Below, in pieces: positions 24,745-48,679 of a DNA stretch of 64,000 bases. The position numbers were made by a program, and so were the translations under genes. A model generated the notes under the pieces. That model was not told where the DNA came from, made no database searches, and saw nothing but the letters and a program-made list of their open reading frames with translations. Numbering within the stretch: position 1 is the stretch's first letter; each line of letters begins with the position of its first letter. The stretch is from assembly GCA_964059195.1 (NCBI GenBank), contig CAXKWD010000002.1, positions 163,686,559 to 163,750,558 on the forward strand, read 5' to 3'. This DNA comes from Ectobius pallidus (Eukaryota > Arthropoda > Insecta > Blattodea > Ectobiidae).

Positions 24745-25310
24745 AGTAGTATGGTATTATATGTGACGTCAGAGGTGGAATGTGGAATGAGAGGAGAAAC
24801 GGGGGCGTGGCTATGACGTCACGGATCACGTGACAGAAGGCGCTGGAGGGGAGGGAGGCGCAGCTATAACGTCACAAGTGGGCGTGGCTTATGACGTCAC
24901 AAGTGGGCGTGGCTATGACGTCATGACCTTTGTCATGGTAACGTGAATCAAATGGCGTCGGTTCCGGTTCCTATTGCAAATGGCGGACCATGCGCGAAAT
25001 TCAAAATTTGGAAATTCATTATACGTTACGTTTCCGGTTCCTATTTCAAGTGGCGTAAGGTGGGAAATTTAAAAATTGTATTTTGGTATATGGCGGGTGA
25101 TTTGAAAATTGCGAATGGTGGAAAGTGGATATTACAATTGAAAATAGCGTAAGGTGGGAAATTTGAAATTTTTATATGGCTAGATGGCGGGTGATTTGAA
25201 AACTGCAAAAGGTGGAAATTGGATATTACAATTACAAATGGCGTAAGGTGGGAAATTTGAAATTTGTATATTGCTAGATGGCAGGTGGAATGTTTTACGT
25301 CATAATTCAA
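24745..25310. promoter_or_regulatory. Left tip: TGACGTCA and GGGCGTGG clusters
   Basis: Four perfect TGACGTCA palindromes at 24764, 24814, 24892 and 24916, three GGGCGTGG boxes and one CACGTG lie in the first 180 bp. Further in, ATGGCG, GGTGGGAAATTT and related phrases recur at about 65-70 bp spacing. TGACGTCA is the CRE/ATF binding palindrome. Such clusters at the ends of a replicon suit an enhancer or origin role. That role is inferred. Confidence 0.6.
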
Positions 25311-25359
25311 AATAGCGTCAATGCTTACGTCACAAGTCGATTGCTATGACCTATCTCAA

Positions 25360-25665
25360 CAGTGGAGTGGTAGGGGAAGGTGGAATAAGAGGGGAAGGTG
25401 GAATGACTACGTCATAATTCAAAAATGCGACATTGCTTACGTCACAAGTGGAATAAGAGGGGAAGGTGGAATGACTACATCATAATTCAAAATGGCGAAA
25501 TTGCTTACGTCACCAGTGGAATAAGAGGGGAAGGTGGAATGACTACATCATAATTCAAAATGGCGACATTGCTTACGTCACAAGTGGAATAAGAGGAGAA
25601 GGTGGAATTTTTTACGTCATAATTCAAGATGGCGACATTGCTTACGTCATCAGAGGATTGGGAGG
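25360..25665. repeat. Tip tandem array, about 68-bp unit (left arm)
   Basis: Four or more tandem units built from GGTGGAATGACTACATCAT, AATTCAAAATGGCGACATTG, CTTACGTCACAAGTGGAAT and AAGAGGGGAA. Each has a TTACGTCA half-site. The mirror array lies at 47775-48000. Confidence 0.85.
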
Positions 25666-25669
25666 ATTG

Positions 25670-26060
25670 CTATGACCTATCTCAACAGTGGAGTGGTTTA
25701 TGACGTCATGAGTCAATATGACAGATTTCAACTTTATGTCGTTTTGTTTGCATGGAAGCATTACAGAAGCAGCAGGAAGTATATATATCATATTACTCTA
25801 CGTCATCAGTTTTGTTCCCACGTTTTGTCACGTACACCAGAACAAGTGGCCGCAACACCTGGTCAGAAGTGCGACTCACATTACAGTACGAAGCGTAAAT
25901 CCAACATCATCATTATTTTATGATTATATTCCTCCATACAAGTTTTCCACAAGATGTCTATTTCCCTAAAAATAGCCTTGAGGTTGACTCAGCCTGGAGA
26001 AAATGTGGTCGGTGCGTAAGGCTTACATAAGTGCCGAATGTCAAAAATCTGGGCCTCCTA

Positions 26061-26099
<39 letters not shown>

Positions 26100-27350
26100 C
26101 AGACACCATCTAAAGTGTAGAGATATCGATATTTTATCCCTTCGTAATTTTTTATGAATATGGTAGCTAACGTCTTAAAACTATATTTTATCATACAATT
26201 TTGTCATAAGATGATAATCCTAACCCTGAGGTCTACTCAGCCTCGTTCTTACCAGTCAGTGTATAATATTAAGTCGTAAATTTTGCTAACGTGACCGGTA
26301 CATGATCTTACGTATCGAATGAGCTTCAAACCCTCGGTATAATGAGGGAATAATATTATGTTGATAATTACATGTTTTTATAATGCAGATACCGTATTAT
26401 AATATCGTAGAGTGATTAAAACATATAGAACTAACGTTGTTTCATTGCAGAGAGATTTGCTGAGGTAAGCTAGCCTTGATGTATACTATTTCTGCTTGTT
26501 ATCTCTTACTATACGGCGGCCATATGATGTAGTAGCCTTCAACGCTCAGATGTAACATTCTCATTCAGTGAAACTCTTTCCTTTTAAAACTCCATCGTAA
26601 TATTATAACATCACAGTCCTGTTCCCTTTAATTACTCTTCATGTTTATTATGTCTTATGTGATTATTTTAATAATCATCGTTATTCTGTTGCTGCATATT
26701 AAAAGATGAAATTCTAATATTTCATCGCAGAATGGGTCTGGGTTCGATTCCTGGCCGGGTAGAGGGCTTTTCAGTAATGAAGAATCTCCGACATATGTCT
26801 TGTGTATTATATATTAAACCAATGTCTCATCTCTGAAGGAACCTTATATTATTATTAATGAATTTAGCTTCCGTTTTAATATAGAGTATAACATAACACA
26901 TTTGTCAGCATTTATTTTTGCAAGCATATAATGTCCAAAAGACACGTTTTCAGAATTAAATATCGGATATCTGCTTATTCATCAAGTTTCCGTTGCGAGG
27001 ATATAATTTACATACGCCAGCAATTTATTGTGAGAAATCACGATCATGCATTTTCACATGCATATAATGTTATAGGCTTTACGCTTTGAGGAAATCACTT
27101 CGGAAATGGATATGTAATTACTGCTGACTTCATCATTTTTAAACTTTACCGTGTATTTGTCCTGTTGCGAGGCTACAATTCATTGCATAATCATCAGTTT
27201 TTTTAAACTTTTATCATTTCGTTGGTGGAAAATAAATAATTTACCGTTGTGAGGCTAGCATTCATTACGTCATCATTATTTCTACCGTCGCGAGGCTATT
27301 TCATAACGTCATCACTACAGACCTGCTCCTCGTGTAACGTTTGGCCGCTA
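25670..27350. other. Left-arm non-coding stretch with SINE-like box B
   Basis: No supported gene. It mirrors 45960-47760 in the right arm. An (ATT)n tract lies at about 26063-26099. At 26741-26751 is GGTTCGATTCC, a box-B-like sequence in a context (GTCTGGGTTCGATTCCTGGC) typical of the 3' part of a tRNA-derived SINE. No box A is recognisable. Confidence 0.4.
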
Positions 27351-27352
27351 GC

Positions 27353-27361
27353 TTTTAAATA
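27353..27361 (+). promoter_or_regulatory. TATA-like box of the four-exon gene (left arm)
   Basis: TTTTAAATA is conserved in both arms, about 120 bp before the ATG. A CATTCATCT stretch about 30 bp downstream could be the initiator. A possible acceptor (ATTTCAG at about 27455) may mark a 5' UTR intron. Confidence 0.45.
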
Positions 27362-27479
27362 CGAGGTTGAAAGTTGCAATACATTCATCTCTACACAAAC
27401 CCCCTTCAGGTGAAGAGCTGCCAGCGAAGATTGAGTGTGATAAATTATATTTCAGCGGTCAAGAATATTCAATAGCATC

Positions 27480-30034
27480 ATGGGTAAGTTAGAGTGTATT
27501 TTTTTTACAATAAACCTGAATTTTATATTATATTATACAAATACAAAAACACAAATACAATATTATACAAGTGTTAAACACCCGAAAGAGCAGAATGCTC
27601 GGGCTCGGGTGCAGTTCAGTCTTAAAACGTACAGCATTATCATACACACACACACACACACACGAACATATACATACACATGCAAGCATCACAAAACAAA
27701 ATTAACATAAATCACAAGAGAACATAAAAACGTATAATTTCATTACTGTTAACATTTACTTATAAAATACATCAAGAAAATAAGATGAACTATTTTAGAA
27801 AAACTATTTTATAATATATCTTATTCTATTCTTAAAACTATTCACATTCATGTTATTTATATCTGGATGCTTTCTTAATACATTATTGTATAGTCTTACT
27901 CCAAAATTAAACCCATGTTTCAGCGCAGCTGATGTATTACACTTAATTTCAATTAAGGGTGAGGAGGCAATTCGTCTTGTGTTAAGAGGGTGAAAATGTG
28001 TTTTAAAATTAGATTTATGTTTATGGATAAAAAAAGAAAATTTCTTTTAAATAAATTCAAAATATCTAATACATTAAATTCAGGGAAGATAAGTTGCCTA
28101 GGGCAATCCAAAGGTTTCTTTAAGCAAATCTTTATTATACGTTTTTGCAGTAATAATAAAGGAGTAACATTAGATTTAGAAGTGCCTCCCCAACCAATTA
28201 TTCCATACTGTATTACAGATTGTATTAAAGCTAAGTATACAGACCGTAAAACATACGTAGGCATATAAGAGAGCAAGATTACAAATTTATGTATAGTTTT
28301 ACGAAGTCTGTTAGTTATGCATGCTATGTGTTTATTCCATTTTTAATTTTGGTCAATAATTATTCCTAAATACTTTACCTCAGTACTAGTACGTATGGAA
28401 GAGCAAAAACAATTTTGAGTTATGGAACAACCAGAAATGTGAAATTTGATAGAATTTTGAAAAGATTCCTGATCTTGAATACCTGTTTTGGTTAAAGAAA
28501 AAGGTAATAAAGATGTTTTAGCGATATTTAAAGAAAGCATATTTACATCCAGCCAGTTTGTTATAATGCTTAGCCCCTTATTAGCATTTTCGTATGTATT
28601 GTTCCAATTTGAACCAGAAAAAATCAATATTGTGTCATCAGCATAGGAGTAGCTGGATCCAGACATTGCGTCTAGTTTAAATTTCAGTAGATCATTTATA
28701 TATACAAGGAATAAAATAGGTCCGAAAATTGTTCCTTGTGGAACTCCAATATTTATGTTCTTTGCTTCACTGAGTTGATTATTACCTTTTACAATTTGAT
28801 TCCTGTCATTTAAATATGATGCAAAAAATTTTAAAATGACTCCATTTATACCTAGCGCTTGTAGTATAAAAAATATTTCCTGCGATGTTTATAGTGCTAG
28901 CCTATATGTTTTTTACTCCTCAATATGTGTAGTACACTAGTCTAGTTTAATATAGCACAGCTATTATTCAAAATTCATTTTAGTTGTTAACAACGTCTTA
29001 GAGATTTTATAAATCACATGTGAATTATTCCTCACAAATATTAATTTTCTCCATTAAATATACATAGCCTATGTTCTATTCGATTACAATATAACATATT
29101 TCGAGAATATAGATGGATAGGTAGAATTATTTTGATAATTCAAACACTACCACCCAGAGTGTGTTATAATAATAATATTCACGTCCTCCGTTATCTGAAA
29201 TATTTCTACTAAATATTATAAACGTGAAAATATAGACCTAACCACACTAGATAATTTTATTAATATTAATATAAATATTATCCTTATACATACACCGTTT
29301 ATCTTCTACAACATAACCATAACCACTCGCAGACATGGTACATGAAATAATATCTATAAGGTGATGCAATATTATTCTCATTCCGCAGATCATATGGAAC
29401 AATATTGGGACGGAGTCCCCGACAATATAATATCAAAGGCGCTAGATGGTGAAGAAGTCGATTCTGAACCTACATCTACACAGGTATGTAGTGAAATTAT
29501 TATTATTTCTTATATTTCAGTGATTGTACAAGACAAATCTTAATTTTTTCTCATAGATCTTAATATTTTATTTTTCTTTTGTTACAGAATACAGAGTTCA
29601 ACCGCATAAGTAGCAACATGTCTAATATATCGAAAGAGGTGTTCTTCTATAATTATCACGAGAAGAAATTATTCAAAGAACAGGTTTCTTATTATAGTTC
29701 TCTAACATCTGATTATACTCGTATTTGGCCATGTGGACGATTGGAGAAGGACTCACACTCTCGCGAGTTTCATTCTGAAACATGTGATGGTGTTCAACAT
29801 TATATGTTATGTATAGACCCGTAGGATGTTAGTAGAGCGATGTGCTACCACATATGTGCAGACGGACAAGATTGCTCTGTGTATAAATCTTCTAACAAGA
29901 TGGTATGTAACATTTCTTCAATACTTTTTTTTAAAAGTAGTCTATTACTAGACTTTATTTACATTTGTATTTTTGTTTTGTTTCAGACGTTGGATGAACT
30001 AAAGGAAGATCACGATGAATGGTTGTACGCCTAA
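27480..30034 (+). CDS. Four-exon gene of the palindrome, left-arm copy
   Basis: Exons by inspection: 27480-27483 (ATGG), 29389-29483, 29588-29902 and 29987-30034. Donors are GTAAGT, GTATGT and GTATGT; acceptors are TTCCGCAG, TTGTTACAG and TTGTTTCAG. All joins keep frame. The product starts MDHMEQYWDGVPDNIISKAL and continues through WPCGRLEKD and HYMLCIDP. An in-frame TAG lies at 29822-29824 (product 111 aa); the frame then stays open through CYHICADGQDCSVYKSSNK to DEWLYA and TAA (153 aa with readthrough). Text after the TAG is Cys-rich, and its last intron keeps frame, so it was once coding. The first intron has received a LINE insertion. No family recognised. It is transcribed from the tip toward the centre. 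Confidence 0.6.
27489..28866 (-). mobile_element. 5'-truncated LINE in the first intron, left arm only
   Basis: Absent from the right arm, where the donor runs straight into TATATAAAATATTTCC. Minus-strand RT text starts with GVPQGTIFGPILFLVYIND, then YSYADDTILIF, and runs to 27953 in one frame with a single stop (28340-28342). The 3' UTR (27489-27952) contains a (CA)n tract at about 27642-27663. A simple target duplication is not obvious. The RT is of the CR1/Jockey type. This insertion dates after the arms formed. Confidence 0.8.
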
Positions 30035-32120
30035 GGCTTGCTTCCATCACACAGCATGTCTTATATATTTTTTACAGGACGCTGTTCAACCTTGTATATT
30101 TAGAATTATTACATAATTCTTATTATATTTGCTAGAAAATTCAAAATAGAGTTTAGAAATTCTTTCATTCCATGTATTACATGATGTGGTTATGTTACAA
30201 TATTCTCGCCATGAGCTAAATTTCTGTATTCGTACAGTTTCTCAACATTCCATTTTGCTTCAAAGTAATGTTCTTTACGCATTTCTCGCACTAAATCATT
30301 ATTCTTTATATTCTGCTGCATACTCCTTAATGAACCAAAGTCATAGATTTTTACCTAATTTACACCATCATGTATGAATTAGTTTCTTAGCTTTCCACTA
30401 TTTCCCACCATTTTATTCATGTTATCATACCATTTAGCTAATTAACATCACACTATGGGTTTATTACCATGTATACACACATTTCTTCTATAATACATCA
30501 CAAGTTTGATGGCTAAAATAATATGCTTATTGTTTTTCCAAGTTCTCATCATTACTCACAATGCCTTTGAACTCGACCTGTTCATCATTCCAGTCTAAGA
30601 CCCATATTTTAAATGCACTTAACACAATTATAATTTTTTACGAGATCTTTGTCATAATTTACAGAGCACCTATTAGTTATTGATAATATTGTTTTAAATT
30701 CAAAGTCATTGCATCCGTTAATCTTCACTTTAATACTATTTCATTTTACATTTTCGACTATGTTCGCCCTACATATACCATTTCTATTTCAGTTCTACTT
30801 ATGAGGTTTCTTTGGCCAAGGCAATTATTCACTTCGTCTCATTATAACATCTACTAAGAAACCTTAGGAAAAGGATTCTTTAAATATAATTATGATATCT
30901 AAATTTCCTTCTTTAACCATGACTAGGTTTCAACTTCATATCTATAAGCCAGATTTTTTTTCTTTCTTTTTAGAAACTCGACGATCACAATTCTAGCATC
31001 CAGGCTGACAGATGAAACAATTACCATTATTATTACTATTACTTTTATTATCACATTCGAGCTTTATAACCATAAAGGACATGTCCTACTATCAATCAGC
31101 GGCTCACTTTCCACTGTTTCATTTCGGTATTAGGTGACAATATTACGGTCTAAGTTGTAAGCAAAGCAGCTTTCCAGCTATGAGCTATCATTTCTATATA
31201 CATCTAAATCTTCATAAGTTCTCACATATGCCAGTACACACCGTTTGAGGTTTTTCTTCAGAAAAATAAGTACAGGACCGGTATAGATCCACTATACATC
31301 TGAAGCGATGATAGCTCTAACATCAATTTATATTCTTCTTTCGGACATCCATCTTTCTATGTTCATTCCCACTTTTATTAATTTAGGTGTACACTTCATT
31401 ATAGTATTTATTATTATAAATAACAAATATCAGAACTCATTAAGGATTAGTGTTGTAAAAAAGTTACAACTAAGGATTTCAAATTTTGCCCTATCTATAT
31501 AATTCACTACTCTAGCTGTAAAACATGATAATTTCTTGAAAATACGTTTAAGAATTCATTTCGAAACCTCATATTTCTGAACGTTTAGTCACACTATAAA
31601 ACAAGATTTTCTACATAAAATCACTATAAATATCGAAGTTTTTACATAAACTATCTATAAATATAGAATTTTCTACATAGAACAGCGAAAAATCACACAC
31701 ACACACCACATATTTAGGAGAGTAGACCTACATACGATTAGCTACATTTTGCACTCATAAATGATACTTTTTAATACGAGGAATTGTTCGAAATTGATAA
31801 ATGTGTACCAGATCTTCAGGTTGTTGTCAATATTCTGGTGGATATAACACGAAGCATACTATACATCATTCATCACTCTTTTTTACATAAATAACTCTAA
31901 ATTCAGTTAATAGAGGACTATGTAACGGAAATATTTAAGTAGGGTTATTCCATTCTTGACACTGAATAGGGAGGGTCTCGACTACAACATGTATTAGAAC
32001 GAAACTGATGTCTCACCAGTTAGAACTAGTCTGGATTGGCTTTTGTCTAGTTAGCTAATTGTATTTAACAAGCAACAACTATTTATTAGGTCTCCTTTTG
32101 CCAAAAAACTAATGGAATAG
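30035..32120. other. Left-arm non-coding stretch
   Basis: Mirrors 42540-44610 and shows no supported gene in this arm. The equivalent right-arm stretch has a 66-codon open frame (43927-44127) that is frameshifted here, in an A/T run near 30640. Confidence 0.45.
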
Positions 32121-32680
32121 GTCTCGTCTCGTTCTCGTCTCGTTCTCGTCTCGTTCTCGTATCGTCTCGTCTCGTTCTCGTCTCGTCTTGTCCTCGTCTC
32201 GTCTCGTCTTGTCCTCGTCTCGTCTCGTCTCGTCTCGTCTCGTCTCGTCTCGTTCTCTTCTCGTCTCGTCTCGTCTCGTCTCGTTCTCTTCTCGTCTCGT
32301 CTCGTCTCGTTCTCTTCTCGTCTCGTTCTCGTCTTGTCTCGTTCTCGTCTCGTCTCGTTCTCGACTCGTCTCGCTCTCGTCTCGTCTATTTGTGTATTTA
32401 ACACAAGATCCAGTACAAGAACATCACCATCATCATTATAGTCATATCTGCTTCAGGATTTGGAATGAAGTGATACATTTTATAACGAGAAACTATATAA
32501 AACAAATGGCTCAGGTTTACAGACTCTAAAATTTCATAAGTCATCACTTCTCGTCTCGTCTCGTCTCGTCTCGTGTCGTCTCGTCTCGTCTCGTCTCGTC
32601 TCGTCTCGTCTCGTCTCGTCTCGTCTCGTCTCGTCTCGTCTCGTCTCGTCTCGTCTCGTCTCGTCTCGTCTCGTCTCGTC
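32121..32680. repeat. (CGTCT)n pentamer arrays, left arm
   Basis: Two arrays (32121-32388, interrupted by TTCTC variants; 32549-32680, nearly pure) separated by a unique unit that begins TATTTGTGTATTTAACACAAG. The right arm holds an unequal counterpart at 42064-42535. Open frames through these arrays are not genes. Confidence 0.9.
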
Positions 32681-32717
32681 TATTAGTGTATTCAACACAA
32701 CATCCAATTCAAGAACA

Positions 32718-33735
32718 TCACCATCATCATTATACTCATATCTGCTTAAGGATTTGGAATGAAGTAATACATTTTATAACGAGAAACTATATAAGACAAA
32801 CGGCTCAGGTTTACAGACTCTAAAATTTCATATGTCATCACTAAGAATATTCTATCTGACTAGGACATATACGTATGGAAAATGAAAAACATGTACATTT
32901 GTTTGTATCTTTTCTGTTTATTGTATCCCTCAACCATTATTCATAACCCAACTTATAGTGTGAGACATATTATATCACAGCTTTGGTTAGGTTAGGATAG
33001 GTTAATTTAGGTAATGTTAGGTTAGGTTATGTTAGCAGGATGATATTTGAAAATTATTTCATCAATAATGAAAAGGCTAAGTTAGGTTATGATAGGTTCG
33101 TTTAGGTTATGTTAGGTTAGGTTAGGTTAGTTTAGGTTATGTTAGGTTAGGTTAGGTTAGCAGGGTATTTTTAAATTATTTCTAGAAACATTGATAAAAT
33201 GTGCCAAGGAACTTAACCTTTTCATCAATGTAGAAATAATTTTAAAGTTTTATCCTGCTAACCTAACCTAATCTAACATAACCTAAACAAACCTAACGTA
33301 ACCTAACCTAACATAAACTAAACTAACCTATCCAGACCTAACTTAGCATTTTCATTAATGATGAAATAATTTTAAAATATCATCCTGCTTACCTAACCTA
33401 ACCTAACATAACCTAAACTAACCTATCCTAACCTAACCAAAGCTGTGATATAATATGTCTCACACTGTAAGTTGGGTTATGAATAATGGTTGAGGGATAC
33501 AATAAACAGAAAAGATACAAACAAATGTACATGTTTTTCGTTTTCCATACGTACATGTTTTTCATTTTCCATACGTATATGTCCTAGTCAGATAGAATAT
33601 TCTTAGTGATGACTTATGAAATTGAGTCTGTAAACCTGAGCCGTTTGTTTTATATAGTTTCTCGTTAAAAAATGTATCACTTCATTCCAAATCCTGAAGC
33701 AAGTATGACTGTAATGATGATAGTAGTAATAGTGG
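32718..33735. repeat. Nested inverted repeat with TTAGG/CCTAA blocks (left arm only)
   Basis: Arms at about 32718-33190 and 33240-33735 are inverted copies around a short centre. Inside, the left half carries degenerate GGTTAGGTTAGG runs (32984-33165) and the right half CCTAACCTAACC runs (33258-33440). The right arm of the giant element lacks this block, so it formed after the palindrome. TTAGG is the insect telomere unit, but such dispersed runs are also common away from telomeres. Confidence 0.75.
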
Positions 33736-34223
33736 AGGCATAGGAAGAGAGCCATCGAGGCCGGTCAGCCTCAAAAGATAAGTAAGCAATAAATAAAAAT
33801 AAATCCTATAATATTGTGAGAAGTGATGTGAACATTAAATCTTAAAAATAAAAATGTAATCCACGTAGGAGTATTTATTAGGGGTAGGCCCACCCCTATA
33901 TATACTTAAGCCTATCGTAAAAGAAAAAAAAATCCAAAAAATAAAGTATTTAAATTTTGTGAGTCGAGTACTTTTTATGATTTAAAAATAAAGCGTAATC
34001 CACGTAGGTCTATGTATGTGGGGTAGTCCCCGCCTGGGCGAGGCCCAGACTATACTAATCTCAGATGTGAAAATTAAGTTGTGATGGGTTTGTACATCCC
34101 TGCTTAAGCGAAGTTAAAGGTGTTTGTTGTAATAACACTGCAGGCAGTAAGGAAATGCAACGTAATGATGCAGCTAGATGATGGAATGCATGTTAGGTAA
34201 CGAAGATAAACATCATGACTTGC

Positions 34224-34913
34224 TTATATTAAATTGTGATGTATTCCCAGCGTGTGTCCAATTTCGTGAATGAGTACGTAATACAGACTGTTGATCTTTT
34301 CATCACCAGAGAAATTCGTTTTCGTAGACCATTGGAAGACGTCGTTAATGTGAATTTCAGGACGAATACCCTTACCAGGATGGAAGGCATGTGCTAAAAC
34401 ATGGTCATGTGTCACGAAATCGTCAGAACAATCCATATCGAGAAGTTCAAATTTATGGTATCCTCTCTGATTAGTTATTAAGATATCTGGTTGTTTTATA
34501 TCTCTTGAGAAAGTGACACCAGATATAGATGCCCATTTTTCAAAAGCCTTATATGCAATTTCTATAGCCTTTAGGTCCATGGTGTTATAATTCCATGGTA
34601 AAAATGTGTTTTGTTCCACTTGTTCAACTCTTCAGAGTACGTTATATCTGCAACTCCGCATCGCGGTGTCCTCATTAAAATCAAAGTGTCATTGTATAAC
34701 TTTGAAGATACATTAAGTCCATAATTAGCTTGAAACATGGCAAGAGCTTCTTCGAAAGTTCGTTTGTCTTTGTAGTGTGTTGCTATTACACGACAGATAT
34801 CCATACTGCTTTAGGTAATTAATTGCCATTTCTTGATCGTCGTCGTTGTCCACCATCATAACCTCCGCCCAGCCACAGAGGGCAATCGTTAAAATAATTG
34901 TAAGCCGTAACAT
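34224..34913 (-). pseudogene. Matrixin-type metalloprotease, left-arm copy (two frameshifts)
   Basis: A broken copy of the gene described at 40809-41497. Signal peptide and early prodomain are in one frame (34725-34913), the rest of the prodomain with PRCGVAD in a second (34571-34804), and the catalytic part with HEIGHTLGIHH in a third (34224-34619). The first break is a one-base difference from the right arm (TACAAAGAC here, TACGAGAC there). The second break is shared by both arms. Several residues of the catalytic part differ from the right-arm copy. No intact product is possible. Confidence 0.8.
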
Positions 34914-38096: not shown

Positions 38097-38594
38097 ATGT
38101 CTTATGATAATTTTGTCATCATAGATGTCCAGGGATTTCAGTCTGAATCCAAGCAGTTCGTGGCGAAGGAGGTGGCACTGATCTCACACGATGGGAGAAT
38201 TGGACACTTTATGCTTGAACCGCCAGCTGATGTTTTTCTGGACGCTCGGTGTCAGGAGTATGCAGAATCGTATCTTCATGGAATCCCTTGGCAGCTTGGA
38301 TACATACCATATGTGGCATTGAAATCTATACTAGAGAGTGCTTTACAGTGTGAAGACAAACTTTATTGCAAGGGACTAGAAAAAGCAAAATTTTTTGAAA
38401 AACTACTGCAAAGAAGTGTTACTAACCTTGATGATGTCAGCTGTCCTAAGCTGAGTAAATTAAGACAATGTGACGTCAAATGTTTTTTTCATACTGCTTC
38501 ACATATGGCATGTGCACTACAGAATGTGATGGTGTTAAGAATTTGGATGAAGACCCATTTTAATTTTTCCAGTTTTGTTCACGATATCATGTGA
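38097..38594 (+). CDS. DVQGF-family protein, right-arm copy
   Basis: 165 aa, intact. The N-terminus has a beta-strand-like segment followed by IIDVQGF (residues 9-14). Further on come HFMLEPPADV, then SYLHGIPWQLGYI, LYCKGLEKAKFFEKLL, and a C-terminal HMACALQNVMVLRIW. This order matches an uncharacterised family I know from many insect genomes, often in multicopy, with a DVQGF/DIQGF start and a final H-x-CAL motif. The layout recalls a DEDD-type exonuclease fold, but two of the expected acidic residues are not obvious, so nuclease activity is uncertain. Stop TGA is followed within 10 bp by AATAAA, a compact virus-like arrangement. Confidence 0.75.
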   Translation: MSYDNFVIIDVQGFQSESKQFVAKEVALISHDGRIGHFMLEPPADVFLDARCQEYAESYLHGIPWQLGYIPYVALKSILESALQCEDKLYCKGLEKAKFFEKLLQRSVTNLDDVSCPKLSKLRQCDVKCFFHTASHMACALQNVMVLRIWMKTHFNFSSFVHDIM

Positions 38595-39170
38595 CAAAAT
38601 AAATATTGTTTCATCACTTATTTGTCTTTCTTTCATTCCTACCGTCACCCAACCAGAGGACTTTCGTAATTTTAAATGTAGAAATAACTTCATTTCCTGT
38701 GTCGATGGACATGTTCAAGCATGATTTGTGGATTAATTTAGTGGTTATTCATCATTTTAGCATAATTGACTTTATTTTTTGCCCATTTTAAATGCATAAA
38801 CGGTTTCGATTCCTCTGTCTGCTGTTCACGATGAATCATGTTTTGCGGGTGATACCTGTCCTGAGCCTCTCTACTCAGTATTGAAGAGTGCCTTTGTCAT
38901 ATTGTTACGTAATTTTTGTGCACAATTTAATGTATAAAAGACTTCATATCCTCTGTCGACCGGACATAATCATACTTGTTTTGTAATAATCTATCCTGAG
39001 CTTCTCATGTATCAACATGTTTATATTAGATTACTAGCTCTACAAGAAGTATTAGACAACCCTTTCCAACCCAATTCTCTGTTTTTGTTCAAATTTATAT
39101 TCCTTTACATCGCCTATACGTAGTCATCTTGGAAGAGTTGAAGATCAGAAGGTGAAGAAGAAACGTCATC

Positions 39171-39443
39171 ATGTCTTCGACCGCTTGTCCTCGTACAAAG
39201 TGGCGTGCTCTCAATATGAAAAAGGAAAGTGATCGTTTGAAAACATATGGAAGATGGACTGTGTCTTTCATGAATCCAACGCTTTTGGCCTCCGAGGGTT
39301 TTTATTACACTGGATACGATGATATTGTTCGTTGTGCTTTTTGCAAGGTTGCAATTGGACAATGGAATGAGGGAGATGATCCTCGGAGGGACCACGAACG
39401 TTTCTCACAATTTTGTACATTTTTTGAAAGAAAAGTTAAATAA
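39171..39443 (+). CDS. Single-BIR protein (IAP-like), right-arm copy
   Basis: 90 aa. Residues about 18-86 form one baculovirus IAP repeat: RLKTYGRWTVSF, then GFYYTGYDDIVRCAFC, then a C-x2-C-x16-H-x6-C zinc site ending HERFSQFC. BIR domains bind caspases or IAP-binding motifs; single-BIR proteins lacking a RING can block apoptosis or act in cell division. Which applies here cannot be told from sequence. There is no RING, CARD or UBA. The stop codon overlaps an AATAAA signal. The gene sits between the DVQGF gene and the tRNA and is read outward. IAPs are frequent cargo of insect DNA viruses, so viral descent is plausible but inferred. Confidence 0.9.
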   Translation: MSSTACPRTKWRALNMKKESDRLKTYGRWTVSFMNPTLLASEGFYYTGYDDIVRCAFCKVAIGQWNEGDDPRRDHERFSQFCTFFERKVK

Positions 39444-39701
39444 AACTGTATTCTAAATATTTCAACTTGTGTTGCAATCCTTTCTTAGTGAGGCCTGTTG
39501 AAACATGTCTTGCAGACGTCACCTTTTTATCTTGTACCAATGACACATATTCATGACTCAACAAGTAAGACATGTAAGATATGATTAATACATACCAAAA
39601 TTTGATAAATTACAGTCTTTCTCATATTATTTTATAATACTGTTGGTGAACCCGAGGGAAATGTTAAAGCAAGACAAAAGTTATCTGTCAGTTTAATGAA
39701 A

Positions 39702-40075
39702 TGACATACATTTTATTCGGATTCTAGTCAATGAAGTTAAGGCTTTAATGCACTAGAGTGTAACTATTTTCATAATTTCTTTGCTAGTTTAAAGTCTTTT
39801 TGTTTGAATTCTGAAACGTTTAGAGCTGTTTTTTGTAATATTGTTTAAATTAGTTGAACCTGAGGGATATAGTGTTAGGTTGGGTAAGACAGAATACACC
39901 CGTTGGTTTACTTGTTTGCAAGACTATATATTATTCGTGTCAGGTTGACCGAGAGGTCTAAGGCGCTAGATTCAAGATCTGGTTCCCTTAGGGGAGCGTG
40001 GGTTCGAACCCCACACCTGACAGACATTTTATTTCAGCCAATGAAGTTAAGGCTTTAATGCACTAAAGTATAACT
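39702..40075. repeat. Direct repeats flanking the tRNA (right arm)
   Basis: 39702-39766 and 40021-40075 share ACATTTTATT and AATGAAGTTAAGGCTTTAAT then GCACTA. The tRNA-Leu and about 170 bp of upstream sequence lie between them. The same pair occurs in the left arm. This might mark how the tRNA segment was acquired. Confidence 0.8.
39939..40022 (+). tRNA. tRNA-Leu(CAA), right-arm copy
   Basis: 84 nt including discriminator A. The acceptor stem pairs GTCAGGT with ACCTGAC. The D arm is TGACCGAGAGGTCTAAGGC (box A). The anticodon stem is CTAGA/TCTGG with one T-G pair, and the loop TTCAAGA gives anticodon CAA. The variable arm TTCCCTTAGGGGAGC is of the class-II kind. The T arm GTGGG-TTCGAAC-CCCAC includes box B. 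It is intron-free, unlike many eukaryotic tRNA-Leu(CAA) genes. It looks functional. Confidence 0.95.
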
Positions 40076-40203
40076 AGCCTTGAACGAGTATGACAATGAT
40101 CATGCGTCATGAGGAAGATGGCCATGACTGTGCATAAAGGTTTTGTGGCGTAGTTTTATTCTTGTAACAAGGTCGTGAAGGTATTTTTCCCCCCTTGCCA
40201 GGA

Positions 40204-40213
40204 TATATATAAA
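40204..40213 (+). promoter_or_regulatory. TATA box of the Cys/His-rich gene
   Basis: TATATATAAA lies about 40 bp before the ATG at 40248, in GC-richer surroundings. The short leader and perfect box suggest a compact RNA polymerase II promoter. Conserved in the left arm. Confidence 0.65.
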
Positions 40214-40247
40214 AAGGCTTGTTGCTTTTGGCCAACGATCAGCTACG

Positions 40248-40634
40248 ATGGAACGCTGGCAAATGTTGCAGAGCGAGGAGCGACCTATCACCTATCGTGT
40301 GTATGACAACAGAGGTGTTGTTATCAAGGAGGTGGTTCATCCCTTTACATTTACCAGAATCAAAGGGTATGACCAAATTCACGAGGAATTAGTTCAGGTG
40401 TTTCCATGCGGGCGATCAAACAAAATGATTGCTGGTCAGCAACGGAAATTTGATCATGACTTCAATCACCACGAAGAAATGTGCACGGGAGAGGAACATT
40501 TCACAACTTGTTTAATTCCTGCCAATCCTCTGATGGGAATATGGAGCAGAAAATGTGACACCAAGTGTGCAACATTTAAGAGGACATCACAAAAAAGTAT
40601 AACACAGTTAATTTTTCGTATGATAACCAAATAG
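40248..40634 (+). CDS. Cys/His-rich protein of unknown family, right-arm copy
   Basis: 128 aa if unspliced. Visible features: RPITYRVYDNRGVVIKEVVH, then VFPCGRSNKM, HHEEMCTGEEHFTTC and a terminal KCDTKCATFK. The spaced Cys and His pairs could bind zinc. A donor-like GTATAA at about 40594 and an acceptor TTTGGTTTCAG ending at about 40674 suggest an intron. Spliced here, the frame would continue through CRYVNCYASEENGGEG to 40903, running over the metalloprotease promoter. Because the arms differ by one A at the donor, the two copies predict different C-termini. I do not recognise the family. Confidence 0.6.
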   Translation: MERWQMLQSEERPITYRVYDNRGVVIKEVVHPFTFTRIKGYDQIHEELVQVFPCGRSNKMIAGQQRKFDHDFNHHEEMCTGEEHFTTCLIPANPLMGIWSRKCDTKCATFKRTSQKSITQLIFRMITK

Positions 40635-40759
40635 AAATTCCTTTCTTTTCTCTCAACACTTCTTTGGTTTCAGGCTGTAGATATGTTAATTGCTACGCAT
40701 CAGAGGAAAATGGAGGAGAGGGGAGGTGTCGATTGCAACAGCTTACGTCATCGACAGGG

Positions 40760-40767
40760 TATATAAG
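40760..40767 (+). promoter_or_regulatory. TATA box of the metalloprotease gene
   Basis: TATATAAG lies about 48 bp before the ATG at 40809. A TTACGTCA half-site lies just upstream at 40743. The box overlaps the coding frame of the possible spliced upstream gene. Confidence 0.6.
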
Positions 40768-40808
40768 CGGCTACATCACTGTCGAGACCATGTTGGTGGA
40801 ACTTCAAG

Positions 40809-41497
40809 ATGTTACGGCTTACAATTATTTTAACGATTGCCCTCTGTGGCTGGGCGGAGGTTATGATGGTGGACAACGACGACGATCAAGAAATGGCAAT
40901 TAATTACCTAAAGCAGTATGGATATCTGTCGTGTAATAGCAACACACTACGAGACAAACGAACTTTCGAAGAAGCTCTTGCCATGTTTCAAGCTTATTAT
41001 GGACTTAATGTATCTTCAAAGTTATACAATGACACTTTGATTTTAATGAGGACACCGCGATGCGGAGTTGCAGATATAACGTACTCTGAAGAGTTGAACA
41101 AGTGGAACAAAACACATTTTTACCATGGAATTATAACACCATGGACCTAAATTCTATAGAAATTGCATATAAGGCTTTTGAAAAATGGGCATCTATATCT
41201 GGTGTCACTTTCTCAAGAGATATAAATCAACCAGATATCTTAATAACTAATCAGAGAGGATACCATAAATTTGAACTCCTCGATATGGATTGTTCTGACG
41301 ATTTCGTGACACATGACCATGTTTTAGCACATGCCTTCCATCCTGGTAAGGGTATTCGTCCTGAAATTCACATTAACGACGACTTCCAATGGTCTACGAA
41401 AACGAATTTCTCTGGTGATGAAAAGATCAACAGTCTGCATTACGTACTCATTCACGAAATTGGACACACGCTGGGAATACATCACAATTTAATATAA
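40809..41497 (+). pseudogene. Matrixin-type metalloprotease, right-arm copy (one frameshift, truncated)
   Basis: Frame 1 (40809-41150) holds a signal peptide (MLRLTIILTIALCGWAE), a peptidoglycan-binding-like prodomain (AINYLKQYGYLS, FEEALAMFQAYYGL) and the cysteine-switch motif PRCGVAD. Frame 2 (41102-41497) holds the catalytic domain with the zinc site HEIGHTLGIHH. The frames are offset by one base near 41140; both arms share this, so it predates the duplication or is retained by gene conversion. A stop follows the third zinc histidine by three residues, so the Met-turn and the hemopexin region of typical MMPs are missing. Secreted MMPs degrade matrix proteins, and insect baculoviruses carry relatives. 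As it stands no active enzyme is predicted. Confidence 0.82.
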
Positions 41498-42063
41498 GCA
41501 AGTCATGATGTTTATCTTCGTTACCTAACATGCATTCCATCATCTAGCTGCATCATTACGTTGCATTTCCTTACTGCCTGCAGTGTTATTACAACAAACA
41601 CCTTTAACTTCGCTTAAGCAGGGATGTACAAACCCATCACAACTTAATTTTCACATCTGAGATTAGTATAGTCTGGGCCTCGCCCAGGCGGGTATAGTCT
41701 GGGCCTCGCCCAGGCGGGGACTACCCCACATACATAGACCTACGTGGATTACGCTTTATTTTTAAATCATAAAAAGTACTCGACTCACAAAATTTAAATA
41801 CTTTATTTTTTGAATTTTTTTTTCTTTTACGATAGGCTTAAGTATATATAGGGGTGGGCCTACCCCTAATAAATACTCCTACGTGGATTACATTTTTATT
41901 TTTAAGATTTAATGTTCACATCACTTCTCACAATATTATAGGATTTATTTTTATTTATTGCTTACTTATCTTTTGAGGCTGACCGGCCTCGATGGCTCTC
42001 TTCCTATGCCTCCACTATTACTACTGATGATGGTGATGTTCTTGTACTGGATCTTGTGTTAAA
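41498..42063. other. Right-arm intergenic stretch with short tandem duplication
   Basis: No gene. At about 41666-41720 a unit with GTCTGGGCCTCGCCCAGGCG occurs twice in tandem; the left arm (about 34027-34052) has it once. The GCCTCGCCCAGGC text is itself nearly palindromic. Confidence 0.5.
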
Positions 42064-42535
42064 TACACAAATAGACGAGACGAGACGAGAGGAGACGAGA
42101 CGAGAACGAGACGAGACGAGACGGGAACGTGACGAGAAGTGATGACTTATGAAATTTTAGAGTCTGTAAACCTGAGCCATTTGTTTTATATAGTTTTCCG
42201 TTATAAAATGTATCACTTCATTCGAAATCCTAAAGCAGATATGACTATAATGATGATGGTGATGTTTTTGTACTGGATCTTGTGTTAAATACACAAATAG
42301 ACGAGACGAGAACGAGACGAGAAAAGAACGAGACCAGAGGCGAACGACACCAGACGAGAACGAGACGAGACGAGACAAGACGAGAACGTGACGAGACGAG
42401 AACGAGACGAGACAAGAACGAGACGAGACGAGACAAGACGAGAACGAGACGAGACGAAAAGAGAACGAGACGAGACGAGAACGAGACGAGACGAGAACGA
42501 GACGAGAACGAGACGAGAACGAGACGAGACGAGAC
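42064..42535. repeat. (CGAGA)n pentamer arrays, right arm
   Basis: Mirror of the left-arm CGTCT arrays, shorter and arranged differently, with AACGAGACGAG variants. Two copies of the unique unit ending AATACACAAATAGACGAG occur at about 42020-42075 and 42245-42310. Confidence 0.9.
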
Positions 42536-42539
42536 CTAT

Positions 42540-44769
42540 TCCATTAGTTTTTTGGCAAAATGAGATTTAATAAATAGTTGTTGCTTGTTAAATACAATTA
42601 GCTAACTAGACAAAAGCCAGTCCAGACTAGTTCTAACTGGTGAGACATCAGTTTCATTCTAATACATGTTGTAGTCGAGACCCTCCCTATTCAGTGTCAA
42701 GAACGGAATAACCCTACTTAAATATTTCCGTTACATAGTCCTCTATTAACTGAATTTAGAGTTATTTATGTAAAAAAGAGTGATGAATGATGTAAAGTAT
42801 GCTTCGTGTTTTATCCACCAGAATATTGACAACAACCTGAAGATCTGGTACAAATTCATCAATTTCCAACAATTCCTCGTATAAAAAAAAGTATCATTTA
42901 TGAGTGCAAAATGTAGCTAATCGTATGTAGGTCTACTCTCCTAAAAATGTGGTGTGTGTGATTTTTCGCTGTTCTATGTAGAAAATTCTATATTTATAGA
43001 TAGTTTATGTAAAAACTTCGATATTTATAGTGATTTTGTGTAGAAAATCTTGTTTTATAGTGTGACTAAACGTTCAGAAGTATGAGGTTTCGAAATGAAT
43101 TCTTAAACGTATTTTCAAGAAATTATCATGTTTTACAGCTAGAGTAGTGAATTATATAGATAGGGCAAAATTTGAAATCCTTAGTTGTAACTTTTTTACA
43201 ACACTAATCCTTAATGAGTTCAGATATTTGTTATTTATAATAATAAATACTATAATGAAGTGTACACCTAAATTAATAAAAGTGGGAATGAACATAGAAA
43301 GATGGATGTCCGAAAGAAGAATATAAATTGATGTTAGAGCTATTATCATCGCTTCAGATGTATAGTGGATCTATACCAGTCGTGTACTTATTTTTCTGAA
43401 GAAAAACCTCAAACGGTGTTTACGGGCATATGTGAGAACTTCTGAAGATTTTGATGTAGAAAGAAATGATAGCTCATAGCTGGAAAGCTGCTTTGCTTAC
43501 AACTTAGACCGTAATTTGCCACCTAATACCGAAATGAAACAGTGGAAAATGAGCAGCTGATTGGTAGTAGGACATGTCCTTTATGGTTATAAAGCCAGAA
43601 TGTAATAATAAAAGTAATAGTAATAATAATGGTAATTGTTTCATCTGTCAGCTTGGATGCTAGAATTGTGATCGTCGAGTTTCTATAAAGAAAGAAAAAA
43701 ATCTGGCTTATAGATATGAAGTTGAAACCTAGTCTTGGTTAAAGAAGGAAATTTAGATATCAGAACTAGATTTAAAGAACCCTTTTCCTAAGGTTTCTTA
43801 ATAGATGTTATAATGAGACAAAGTGAATAATTGCCTTGGTCAAAGAAACCTCATAAGTAGAACTGAAGTAGAAATGGTATATATAGGGCGAACATAGTCG
43901 AAAAAGTAAAATGAAATAGTATTAAAGTGAAGATTAACGGATTCAATGACTTTGAATTTAAAACAATATTACCAATAACTAATAGGTGCTCTCTAAATTA
44001 TGACAAAGATCTCGAAAAAATTATAATTGTGTTAAGTGCATTTAAAATATGGGTCTTAGACTGGAATGATGAACAGGTCGAGTTCAAAGGCATTGTGAGT
44101 AATGATGAGAACTTGGAAAAACAATAAGCATATTATTTTAGCCATCAAACTTGTGATGTATTATAGAAGAAATGTGTGTATACATGGTAATAAACCCATA
44201 GTGTGATGTTAATTAGCTAAATGGTATGATAACATGAATAAAATGGTGGGAAATAGTGGAAAGCTAAGAAACTAATTCATACATGATGGTGTAAATTAGG
44301 TAAAAATCTATGACTTTGGTACATTAAGGAGTATGCAGCAGAATATAAAGAATAATGATTTAGTGCGAGAAATGCGTAAAGAACATTACTTTGAAGCAAA
44401 ATGGAATATTGAGAAACTGTACGAATACAGAAATTTAGCTCATGGTGAGAATATTGTAACATAACCACATCATGCAATACATGGAATGAAAGAATTTCTA
44501 AACTCTATTTTGAATTTTCTAGCAAATATAATAAGAATTATGTAATAATTCTAAATATACAAGGTTGAACAGTGTCCTGTAAAAATAGATAAGACATGCT
44601 GTGTGATGGAAGTATGGAGGTGTCTTCGGTTCTAGGGTATACACTACTTCATTTATTCGATGAATAAAAGAAATCGGTTTGAAATAATTTTCACTGATAC
44701 CGGATTTTCCTTTAACTTTTTAATGATATATATTTACAACTTAAAACAATCGATTGTATACAGCAAGCC
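42540..44769. other. Right-arm non-coding stretch
   Basis: No firm gene. A 66-codon frame at 43927-44127 (ITNRCSLNYDKDLEKIIIV, then FKIWVLDWNDEQVEFKG) follows a TATATATAGGG box at about 43879. It starts at GTG, not ATG, so it could only be an exon; the left arm is frameshifted. At about 44612-44765 there is a segment of about 150 bp absent from the left arm, just 3' of the four-exon gene. Confidence 0.4.
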
Positions 44770-45938
44770 TTAGGCGTACAACCATTCATCGTGATCCTCC
44801 TTTAGTTCATCCAACGTCTGAAACAAAACAAAGATACAAATGTAAATAAAGTCTATTAATAGACTACTTAAAAAAAGTATTGAAGAAATGTTACATACAT
44901 CTTGTTAGAAGATTTATACACAGAGCAATCTTGTCCGTCTGCACATATATGGTAGCACATCGCTCTACTAACATCCTACGGATCTATACATAACATATAA
45001 TGTTGAACACCATCACATGTTTCAGAATGAAACTCGCGAGAGTGTGAGTCCTTCTCCAATCGTCCACATGGCCAAATACGAGTATAATCAGATGTTAGAG
45101 AACTATAATAAGAAACCTGTTCTTTGAATGATTTCTTCTCGTGATATTTATAGAAGAACACCTCTTTCGATATATTAGACATGTTGCTACTTATGCGGTT
45201 GAACTCTGTATTCTGTAACAAAAGAAAAATAAAATATTAAGATCTATGAGAAAAAATTAAGATTTGTCTTGTACAATCACTGAAATATAAGAAATAATAA
45301 TAATTTCACTACATACCTGTGTAGATGTAGGTTCAGAATCGACTTCTTCACCATCTAGCGCCTTTGATATTATATTGTCGGGGACTCCGTCCCAATATTG
45401 TTCCATATGATCTGCGGAATGAGAATAATATTGCATCACCTTATAGATATTATTTCATGTACCATGTCTGCGAGTGGTTATGGTTTAGAAGATAAACGGT
45501 GTATGTATAAGGATAATATTTATATTAATATTAATAACATTATCTAGTGTGGTTAGGTCTATATTTTCACGTTTATAATATTTAGTAGAAATATTTCAGA
45601 TAACGGAGGAAGTGAATATTATTATTATAATACACTCTGGGTGGTAGTGTTTGAATTATCAAAATAATTCTACCTATCAATCTATATTCTCGAAATAAGT
45701 TATATTGTAATCGAATAGAACATAGGCTATGTATATTTAATGGAGAAAATTAATATTTGTGAGGAATAATTCACATGTGATTTATAAAATCTCTAAGACG
45801 TTGTTAACAACTAAAATGAATTTTGAATAATAGCTGTGCTATATTAAACTAGACTAGTGTACTACACATATTGAGGAGTAAAAAACATATAGGCTAGCAC
45901 TATAAACATTGTAGGAAATATTTTATATACTTACCCAT
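44770..45938 (-). CDS. Four-exon gene of the palindrome, right-arm copy
   Basis: Exons in transcription order: 45938-45935, 45411-45317, 45212 to about 44903, 44817-44770. The same splice signals as the left arm are present, and the first intron lacks the LINE. The in-frame TAG after CIDP is kept. At the third donor one G is missing compared with the left arm (AAGATGTATGT), so splicing at GTATGT would shift the last exon's frame. The portion before the TAG (111 aa) differs from the left by only two or three residues. Function unknown. Confidence 0.6.
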
Positions 45939-45959
45939 GACGCTATTGAATATTCTTAC

Positions 45960-47760
45960 CGCTGAAATATAATTTTTCACACTCAATCTTCGCTGGCAGC
46001 TCTTCACCTGAAGGGGGTGTGATGTTCAGATGAATTTATTGCAACTTTCATCCTCGTATTTAAAATCTGGCGGCCAAACATTACACGAGGAGCAGGTCTG
46101 TAGTGATGACGTTATGAAATATCCTCGCGACGGTAGGAATAAAATCCTCCAATGAGAAATAATGATGATGTAATGAATTCTAGTCTCAGAACGGGAAATT
46201 ATTTATTTTCCACCAATGAAATGATATAAGTTTAAAAAACTGATGATTATGCAATGAATTGTAGCCTCGCAAAAGGACAAATACACGGTAAAGTTTAAAA
46301 ATGATGACGTCAGCAGTAATTAGATATCCATTTCCGAAGTGATTTCCTCAAAGCGTAAAGCATATAACATTATATGCTTGTGAAAATGCATGATCGTGAT
46401 TTCTCACAAAAAATTGCTGGCGTATGTAAATTATATCCTAGCAACGGAGACTTGATGAATAAGCAGATACATGATATTTAATTCTGAAAACGTGTCTTTT
46501 GGACATTATATGCTTGGAAAAATAAATGCTGACAAATGTGTTATGTTATACTCTGTAATAAAACGGAAGCTAAATACATTAATAATAATATAAGGTTCCT
46601 TCAGAGATGAGACATTGGTTTAATATATAATACACAAGCCATATATCGGGGATTCTTCATTACTGAAAAGCCCTCTACCCGGCCAGGAATCGAACCCAGA
46701 CCCATCCGCGATGAAATATTAGAATTTCATCTTTTAATATACAGCAACAGAATAACGATGTTTATTAAAATAATCACATAAGACATAATAAACATGAAGA
46801 GTAATTAAAGGGAACAGGACTGTGATGTTATAATATTACGATGGAGGTTTAAAAGGAAAGAGTTTCACTGAATGAGAATGTTACATCTGAGCGTTGAAGG
46901 CTACTACATCATATGACCGCCGTATAGTAAGAGATAACAAGGAGAAATATTATACATCAAGGCTAGCTCACCTCAGCAAATCTCTCTGCAATGAAACAAC
47001 GTTAGTTCTATATGTTTTAATCACTCTACGATATTATAATACGGTATCGACATTATAAAAACCTGTAATTATCAACATAATATTATTCCCTCATTATACC
47101 GAGGGTTTAAAGCTCATTCGATACGTAAGATCATGTATCTGTCACGTTAGCAAAATTTACGACTTAATATAATACACTGACTGGTAAGAACGAGGCTGAG
47201 TAGACCTCAGGGTTAGGATTATCATCTTATGACAAAATTGTATGATAAAATATAGTTTTAAGACGTTAGCTACCATATTCATAAAAATTTACGAAGGAAT
47301 AAAATATCGATATCTCTACACTTTAGATGGTGTCTGATAATAATAATGATAATAATAAATTAGGAGGCCCAGATTTTTGACATTCGGCACGGATGTAAGC
47401 CTTACGCACCGACCACATTTACTCCAGGCTGAGTCAACCTCAGGGCTATTTTTTAGGAAAATAGACATCTTACGGAAAACTTGTATGGAGGAATATAATT
47501 ATAAAATAATGATGATGTTGGATTTACGCTTCGTACTGTAATGTGAGACGCACTTCTGACCAGGTGTTGCGGCCACTTGTTCTGGTGTACGTGAGAAAAC
47601 GTGGGAACAAAACTGATGACGTAGAGTAATATGATATATATATATATATACTTCCTGCTGCATCTGTAATGCTTCCATGCAAAAAAAAGACATAAAGTTG
47701 AAATCTGTCATATTGACTCATGACGTCATAAACCACTCCACTGTTGAGATAGGTCATAGC
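45960..47760. other. Right-arm non-coding stretch with SINE-like box B
   Basis: Mirror of 25670-27350. The box-B-like GGAATCGAACC (inverse of GGTTCGATTCC) lies at about 46686. Nothing else supported. Confidence 0.4.
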
Positions 47761-47774
47761 AATCCTCCCAATCC

Positions 47775-48679
47775 TCTGATGACGTAAGCAATGTCGCCAT
47801 CTTGAATTATGACGTAAAAATTCCACCTTCCCCTCTTATTCTACTTGTGACGTAAGCAATGTCGCCATTTTGAATTATGACGTAGTCATTCCACCTTCCC
47901 CTCTTATTCCACTTGTGACGTAAGCAATGTCGCCATTTTGAATTATGATGTAGTCATTCCACCTTCCCCTCTTATTCCACTTGTGACATAAAACATTCCA
48001 CCTTCCCCTACCACTCCACTGTTGAGATAGGTCATAGCAATCCACTTGTGACGTAAGCATTGTCGCCATTTGGAATTATGACGTAAAACGTTCCACCTGC
48101 CATCTAGAAGTATACAAATTTCAAATTTCCCACCTTACGCCATTTGTAATTGTAATATCCAATTTCCACCTTTTGCAATTTTCAAATCACCCGCCATCTA
48201 GCAATATACAAATTTCAAATTTCCCACCTTACGCTATTTGCAATTGTAATATCCAATTTCCACCATTCGCAATTTTCAAATCACCCGCCATCTACCAAAA
48301 TACAATTTTTAAATTTCCCACCTTACGCCATTTGAAATAGGAACCGGAAACGTAACCATTTTCATATATACCGCTATTATAAATTTCCAAATTTTGAATT
48401 TCACGCTTGGTCCGCCATTTGCAATAGGAACTGGAACCGACGCCATTTTCATTCACGTGACCATGACAAAGATCATGACGTCATAGCCACGCCCACTTGT
48501 GACGTCATAAGCCACGCCCACTTGTGACGTCAGAAGCCACGCCCACTTGTGACGTCATAGCTGCGCCTCCCTCCCCTCCAGCGCCTCCTGTCACGTGATC
48601 CTTCACGTCATAGCCACGCCCCCGTTTCCCCTCTCATTCCACATTCCACCTCTGACGTCACATATAAAACGATACTACT
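47775..48679. promoter_or_regulatory. Right tip: tandem array and TGACGTCA cluster
   Basis: Mirror of the left tip. The tandem array (about 47775-48000, fewer units than the left) carries TGACGTAAGCAATGTCGCC phrases. The last 210 bp hold five perfect TGACGTCA palindromes, one CACGTGA and CCACGCCC boxes. The end is ATACTACT at 48679. The two tips differ by scattered substitutions and unit number, so they have evolved separately for some time. Confidence 0.6.

Follow-up and report, generated by a model that had tools for sequence, protein, structure and literature searches.

Positions 24745-48679 of a 64,000-nucleotide stretch of the Ectobius pallidus genome (the window, G000:C2:163686559-163750558 of a host assembly of 2.12 Gb in 410 contigs, which was also the assembly searched) hold two palindromic elements, one inside the other, and not one 23.9-kb palindrome. 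Each of the two, with its AG...CT inverted tips flanked by a 6-bp target-site duplication (TSD), forms a complete unit of integration. The reading that we favour, with good confidence, is that both are non-autonomous palindromic derivatives of Polintons (Maverick/adintovirus-type elements). Inverted arms from 24745 to 48679 had been described in an initial annotation of this DNA, and repeat analysis finds them at the same place, with the largest blocks 100% identical near the centre and 88-97% identical at the tips. Arm similarity that runs over kilobases at 93-100% identity is beyond chance. The same annotation took the stretch as one palindrome with arms of 13.1 and 10.8 kb, which does not hold: each of those arms consists of about 4.1 kb of inner element and unequal parts of the outer one.

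The borders, arms and axes of the two elements are located in the window as follows.

24739..24744, forward strand: left TSD of the outer element (TACCCT)
24745..33160, forward strand: left arm of the outer element
33161..33262, no strand: outer hairpin axis or centre, the gap within inverted repeat I15 (32865-33160 / 33263-33558)
33263..33721, reverse strand: outer right arm, initial part up to the inner insertion
33716..33721, forward strand: left TSD of the inner element (GATGAT)
33722..42025, no strand: inner palindromic element, 8304 bp, tips AGTAGTAATAGTGG...
33722..34235, forward strand: tip-side 514-bp end of the inner left arm, not common to the other inner-family copies compared
37837..37889, no strand: 53-nt loop at the inner axis, with a 25-bp inverted stem around it
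37890..42025, reverse strand: inner right arm, 99.6% identical to the left arm with gaps set aside
42026..42031, forward strand: right TSD of the inner element (GATGAT)
42032..48679, reverse strand: outer right arm, remainder
48680..48685, forward strand: right TSD of the outer element (TACCAT)

The outer element measures 15,625 bp without the insert, and 90% of that length lies in inverted arms. Its tips, 5'-AGTAGTAT...ATACTACT-3', and its duplication TACCCT/TACCAT, in which five of six bases are equal, are as first annotated, and so is the 53-bp spacer, now placed at 37837-37889. The annotation had also used Penelope-like element codons joined across the outer borders as confirmation of them. 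The flanks plus one copy of the duplication do give an open NYP|IRPVVN reading, presumably of a Penelope-like reverse transcriptase, but Pfam returned nothing significant for the joined peptide.

The inner element has the tips AGTAGTAATAG (AGTAGT...ACTACT) and a perfect 6-bp TSD. At 33722 and 42025 both of its arms start with AGTAGTAATAGTGGAGGCATAGG, and GATGAT adjoins each. When its flanks are joined with one GATGAT, their alignment to the outer left arm crosses the junction without interruption (81.8% over 671 columns), and so does that to L013, L015, L019, L020 and L021, which are pieces of the related elements E3, E4, E6 and E7 introduced below.

The two pairs of arms have also diverged to different degrees. 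Mismatches were summed from those 500-bp bins that had aligned bases, apart from the bin at 33245, which has 23 bases and no mismatch, and they stand at 18 of 4079 aligned positions in the inner element versus 207 of 6423 in the outer one, a sevenfold gap in divergence (p 2.5e-26). With gaps set aside, arm identity is 99.6% in the inner element and 96.8% in the outer; with gaps counted, it is 98.3% (loop included) and 92.0%. The unequal arm lengths and the step in arm identity arise because the elements are nested. By arm divergence the inner element looks younger than the outer, with the patchy identity of the outer arms as a caveat.

The initial annotation explained the stretch as a panhandle-derived dimer of one Polinton end that integrated once, and this would account for the overall symmetry, the outer tips with their near-perfect TSD, and an inner axis beside a truncated capsid gene. 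We reject it as highly improbable, given the internal tips with a perfect TSD, an insertion site whose counterparts in the opposite arm and four relatives are uninterrupted, a second axis at 33.2 kb and the sevenfold difference in arm divergence; these are two elements with separate tips, TSDs, axes and arm divergence. Palindromes are also a known source of assembly artefacts, such as a fold-back read or a collapsed repeat, an origin that is scarcely credible for arms that mismatch at 225 of 10,502 counted aligned positions and carry large one-sided indels in addition, that have TSDs at their tips, and whose structures recur at many loci. As a practical point, a nested pair of this kind may pass as a single giant palindrome unless internal tips are sought.

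AG termini and a 6-bp TSD are traits of Polintons, and both window elements have 5'-AG inverted tips with a 6-bp duplication (five of six bases in the outer element, six of six in the inner). A genome search with the outer tip gave 95 matches from the best 40 of 1329 candidates, many of them inverted pairs 9-15 kb apart. Eight paired elements (E1-E8) and the single ends E9, E10, E11, E12 and L028 were compared. E1, E2, E8, E10 and E12 carry genes of the Polinton set, a number of which are incomplete or interrupted. E1, E2 and E8 have the outer-type tip at both ends with 6-bp duplications, and one end of E12 was seen. Pfam matches in these relatives include DNA_pol_B_2 (4.9e-14, E8), rve (2.4e-13, E1), Phospholip_A2_4 (3.2e-12, E1), DJR-like (3.7e-85, E12, where the capsid gene is whole) and BIR (5.2e-20, E2). 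The C-terminal Chromo match of the E1 integrase falls below threshold, at 24.4 bits against a cut-off of 25.1, as does the Josephin match that is all the protease of the relatives shows, and the ATPase-like open reading frame (ORF) has no Pfam match; 'protease', 'ATPase-like' and 'penton' are names that we take to fit these ORFs.

The outer element shares its terminal sequence and TSD type with these autonomous elements of the same genome. Positions 24745-27283 are collinear with the PolB-side end of E1, E2, E8 and E10 (with gaps; 66-94% identity), 29528-29605 in the left arm matches the start of the PolB ORF in E2, E8 and E10, and DNA matches of 37 and 47 bp near 32.0 and 32.8 kb lead to sequence near the E12 integrase gene. 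The outer element is a non-autonomous Polinton derivative, because same-genome relatives with its tips carry PolB, an RVE integrase, a double-jelly-roll capsid and PLA2. The host assembly does contain relatives that have this tip, 6-bp duplications and full genes, which the initial annotation had suggested looking for, and the Polinton type, the outer borders and the 6-bp duplication that it proposed are borne out. So is the loss of core genes: PolB, integrase, penton, PLA2 and protease have no match within the window (tblastn E<=1e-3), where no protein match to an RVE-type integrase was found and the double-jelly-roll major capsid protein survives in each inner arm only as a 3' remnant, itself interrupted.

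Across the families the duplications agree at six of six bases in E2, E5, E6, E7, E8, the inner element and the inner-family element B2 described below, and at five of six in the outer element, E1 and E4. Pooled over these 10 elements, 57 of 60 TSD bases agree, and random re-pairing gives a mean of 23.5 and a maximum of 48 in 20,000 shuffles. The count omits E3, E9 and E11, since E9 has no TSD and E3 and E11 have no second tip; the right end of E3 was set without a tip.

Polintons are described in PMC6431247 as elements that bear PolB and integrase and have terminal inverted repeats (TIRs). The definition of adintoviruses is taken from PMC11071296, and general background from PMC2836005, PMC10175614 and PMC4028283. 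The window elements share with the Polintons/Mavericks (polintoviruses) the AG...CT tips, the 6-bp TSD, terminal sequence, and remnants of capsid and accessory genes that are also found in same-genome elements with PolB, integrase and a double-jelly-roll capsid. They differ in having no PolB, no integrase and no whole capsid gene, and in the share of their length that lies in inverted arms, which is 90-100% versus 8-14% in E1, E2 and E8; in E3-E7 it is 49-89%. Their relatives resemble adintoviruses, with PolB, an RVE integrase with the sub-threshold C-terminal chromodomain-like match and a double-jelly-roll capsid, whereas the window elements are non-autonomous. Among the matches listed, no open-access title or abstract mentioned palindromic or non-autonomous Polintons.

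Foldback elements and hairpin-forming miniature inverted-repeat transposable elements are likewise non-autonomous and hairpin-forming, with long inverted repeats, but the window elements are far larger, bear genes and have Polinton-type ends. It could be that foldback-like cut-and-paste elements of another superfamily (e.g. Mutator-like) captured pieces of Polintons. This would suit the long inverted arms without transposition genes inside, as well as the inner 514-bp tip, which is shared with no autonomous element seen. We consider it quite unlikely, given that the outer tips and terminal kilobases are those of PolB- and integrase-bearing elements, that 10 of 10 examined TSDs fit 6 bp, and that Pfam scans of the cargo ORFs gave no transposase domain, no genome-wide transposase search having been made.

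Five of seven relatives match the centre of the outer element, E3 and E6 over nearly its whole length; E9 and E11 give no match. TTAGG is the insect telomere motif, and TTAGG-like repeats lie around the outer centre (window 32981-33438) and likewise around the centres of E3 and E6. One further feature breaks the symmetry of the outer arms and is missing at the corresponding point in E6 and E9.

27490..28862, reverse strand: insertion confined to the left arm, 1373 bp, with reverse-transcriptase ORF fragments (RVT_1 1.1e-12)

E9 (C1:91.80 Mb; L026 410-6345 with L031) is built differently from the others: its inverted duplication reaches about 1.35 kb into both flanks, so that the flanks are reverse complements, and it has no TSD. 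Either it was duplicated in inverted orientation where it lies, or the assembly is wrong here. Such a locus is what would be expected if the palindromes arose in place, a Polinton being integrated first and then mirrored when the host duplicates it in inverted orientation (through broken replication or dicentric-type repair). As a general account this is very unlikely: TSDs are perfect in the inner element and the palindromic E5, E6 and E7 and agree at five of six bases in E4 and the outer element, one axis recurs at many loci, and the scheme fits only E9 among the elements whose flanks were compared. No left tip was found for E11; less than 2 kb from its left inverted repeat lies a 1450-aa ORF (L032 2177-6529, C4:141.62 Mb) that, by eye, we take to be retrotransposon-like.

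The inner element belongs to a family of its own. A genome search with 33800-37800 gave 126 matches from the best 33 of 1225 candidates, and matches of at least 1.4 kb to other loci are 92-97% identical. From 62 rows of at least 735 bits, 25 loci were defined, the window included; an early idea that the inner cargo was confined to the window was overturned by these other loci. In 15 of the 25 the cargo spans 800 bp or more on each strand, and its capsid end faces inward every time; three seemingly one-sided loci (C2:174.66, C4:174.93 and C1:78.32 Mb) are palindromic across the axis as well. Palindromic loci number at least 18 of 25, as a lower bound. The axis was examined in 19 of the other 24 loci, and the 53-nt loop is present, whole or in part, in 18 of them, with the matched part 94-100% identical; the stretches were picked at arm ends, which favours detection of the loop. 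Nine of 16 short axis stretches are palindromic right across, and at C5:56.66 and C3:113.17 Mb one arm ends at the loop. This recurring central loop suggests that the inner copies descend from one founder palindrome.

The window copy shares its cargo with the family from 34235 inward, while its terminal 514 bp differ and are not found in the other loci compared. B2 (C6:17562062-17571217) ends in the tips AGTAGGGATACACGG next to a perfect CATGCT duplication; its TIRs measure 3.2 kb, and it holds the cargo once. Its borders and TSD show that the inner cargo module also moves in a unit with Polinton-like borders. At the inner axis the 3' end of the truncated capsid gene adjoins, as expected of an inverted-duplicated end; the 53-nt spacer was considered as a continuation of the capsid sequence and rejected, as its translation shows no resemblance. 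At one locus (L036 4940-5325, C4:140.99 Mb) the 53-nt loop lies in each arm around a second axis (GAGGATCCTC), making a palindrome of palindromes. Paired changes in the axis stem are seen at C1:83.69, C3:196.72 and C6:28.04 Mb; palindrome copying alone would yield them, and they are therefore not counted as a sign of function.

Both families are multicopy and palindrome-rich, and the copies within each family share an axis. Since other genomic copies have the same axis in each case, the founding fold-backs would be older than the insertions in the window. The two arms of an element also resemble each other more than they resemble other copies. In a tree of the tips, left and right ends are sisters in eight of nine pairs; in a tree of the leader they are sisters in six of six, for segment C in three of four (E3 by identity only), and for segment D in the sole available pair. 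In three of three pairs from the inner family, arms are 99.8-99.9% alike within an element, and identity between elements does not exceed 98.4%.

Adenovirus is known to give defective genomes in which one end is duplicated in inverted orientation, and there too a protein-primed linear genome gives a palindrome of one end; the window palindromes differ in being integrated, inherited, multicopy and alike in their axis. A fold-back in protein-primed synthesis may have founded each family, with the core genes lost and a Polinton turned into a dimer of one end, which would account for the axis beside the truncated capsid gene. The founder palindromes might then have been mobilised in trans by PolB and integrase that autonomous relatives supply. 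Each cycle would start with protein-primed synthesis at the tip, which would pass the central hairpin and copy back outward, and the resulting double-stranded palindrome, with a tip at each end, would be inserted by integrase. The arms of an element are probably re-templated from one another every cycle, because with few exceptions an arm is most similar to its partner in the same element. Of these steps we are least sure of the copying through the hairpin, on which our judgement is evenly divided. A stronger proposal is that the families are hairpin replicons, in which each arm is a protein-primed linear genome closed by a conserved hairpin at one end, each round copies through it, and the full palindrome is packaged and/or integrated with Polinton help. 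These would be subviral Polinton satellites in an animal, with the palindrome as their normal inherited form and not a mere accident, which we put forward tentatively and regard as rather doubtful.

The same nested Polinton palindromes could instead be inherited passively as ordinary double-stranded DNA, their arms kept alike by host gene conversion after insertion. Palindrome arms do undergo gene conversion, and the patchy identity of the outer arms resembles conversion tracts. This is the main alternative to re-templating and a possibility to be taken seriously, although we think it improbable. With inner arms 99.8-99.9% alike in three of three pairs while the elements differ by at least 1.6%, conversion would be needed often in every copy. 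Identity has no general rise toward the axis, and the inner part of E3 is less alike; a rise toward the centre was for this reason set aside as a sign of conversion.

Several observations weigh against nested, re-templated Polinton palindromes, beginning with the fact that post-insertion conversion could also equalise the arms. E4-E7 are palindromic in part only (49-78%). Six of the 16 short axis stretches have no inverted match across the axis and a seventh has one of only 64 bp, and L052 is without the loop. Among the loci compared, neither the inner tip nor the B2 tip was seen on an autonomous element. E1 is the exception in the tip tree, and E3 forms no sister pair for segment C. Outer-arm identity is patchy, at 93.5-99.4% per 500-bp bin, and is a poor clock. 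The leader tree intermixes palindromic and autonomous elements (E6 with E2; E5 and E7 near E8), so that either ends were exchanged or there was more than one founder. An independent origin of the palindromes from several autonomous lineages, which the leader tree had raised, is weakened by the shared axis.

To our knowledge, the replication of Polintons in animals is understood mostly by analogy with adenovirus. Multicopy palindromes with a shared axis would be a fossil record of fold-back synthesis, and would also form a distinct class of non-autonomous Polinton satellites. Agreement of arms within but not between copies makes the mode of replication testable from sequence. Inverted transcripts from such elements could feed host RNA silencing.

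From tip to axis, each inner arm carries a matrixin, an ORF of no assigned function, a tRNA-Leu(CAA), a single-BIR protein, the EXO ORF and the interrupted capsid 3' remnant.

34224..34955, reverse strand: matrixin-like metalloprotease, left copy (Peptidase_M10 4e-17; scattered over several frames)
40767..41497, forward strand: matrixin-like ORFs, right copy, in two frames
35120..35542, reverse strand: ORF of no assigned function, left copy, with relatives in E5-E7 and L028
40179..40634, forward strand: the same ORF, right copy
35698..35783, reverse strand: tRNA-Leu (CAA), left copy
39938..40023, forward strand: tRNA-Leu (CAA), right copy
36277..36564, reverse strand: single-BIR protein, left copy (BIR 1.6e-18; 45% identity to the E2 BIR protein)
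39156..39443, forward strand: BIR ORF, right copy
37126..37623, reverse strand: EXO ORF, left copy, 165 aa, with a DnaQ-like predicted fold
38097..38594, forward strand: EXO ORF, right copy
37653..37772, reverse strand: double-jelly-roll capsid gene 3' remnant, interrupted, left copy
37948..38067, forward strand: capsid 3' remnant, right copy

EXO shares 59% identity with a Polinton ORF that adjoins the capsid gene in E1. It has no significant Pfam family and no sequence match in PDB, and it is assigned by predicted fold only: the model (predicted local distance difference test score, pLDDT, 62) is similar to RNase AS, ISG20 and RNase T. DEDDh nucleases have a D-x-E catalytic motif, and EXO reads D-x-Q in three of three aligned sequences. 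Nuclease activity of the predicted fold seems doubtful because D-x-Q replaces D-x-E. Too few changes separate the copies for a ratio of nonsynonymous to synonymous rates (dN/dS). The capsid remnant matches residues 335-393 of 405, starting by eye at about 321, and the capsid fragments of E6 and E7 stop near the same place, adjoining integrase-region sequence. All 11 capsid matches with an organism name, among the 120 listed, come from insects, and a comparison of capsid and EXO with IMG/VR viral contigs gave no confirmed relative.

Two minor observations concern repeated and diverged cargo. A unit of about 220 bp (window 35923-36147; query 2124-2348) is tandemly repeated in both arms at C6:26111422-26120240 and at other inner-family loci. 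In the outer arm, window 29681-29905 is a diverged relative of the inner ORF of no assigned function, others being those in E5-E7 and L028 (23-41% identity).

Around the elements, repeats near 17.7-18.2 kb (17671-18175) recur in the left flank (24001-24463). Window 20648-22789 holds a 713-aa ORF with a sub-threshold Arc_capsid_dom match, and ORFs of non-LTR retrotransposon type (RVT_1, Exo_endo_phos_2, RNase_H) lie at 1626-3227 and 58443-61675.

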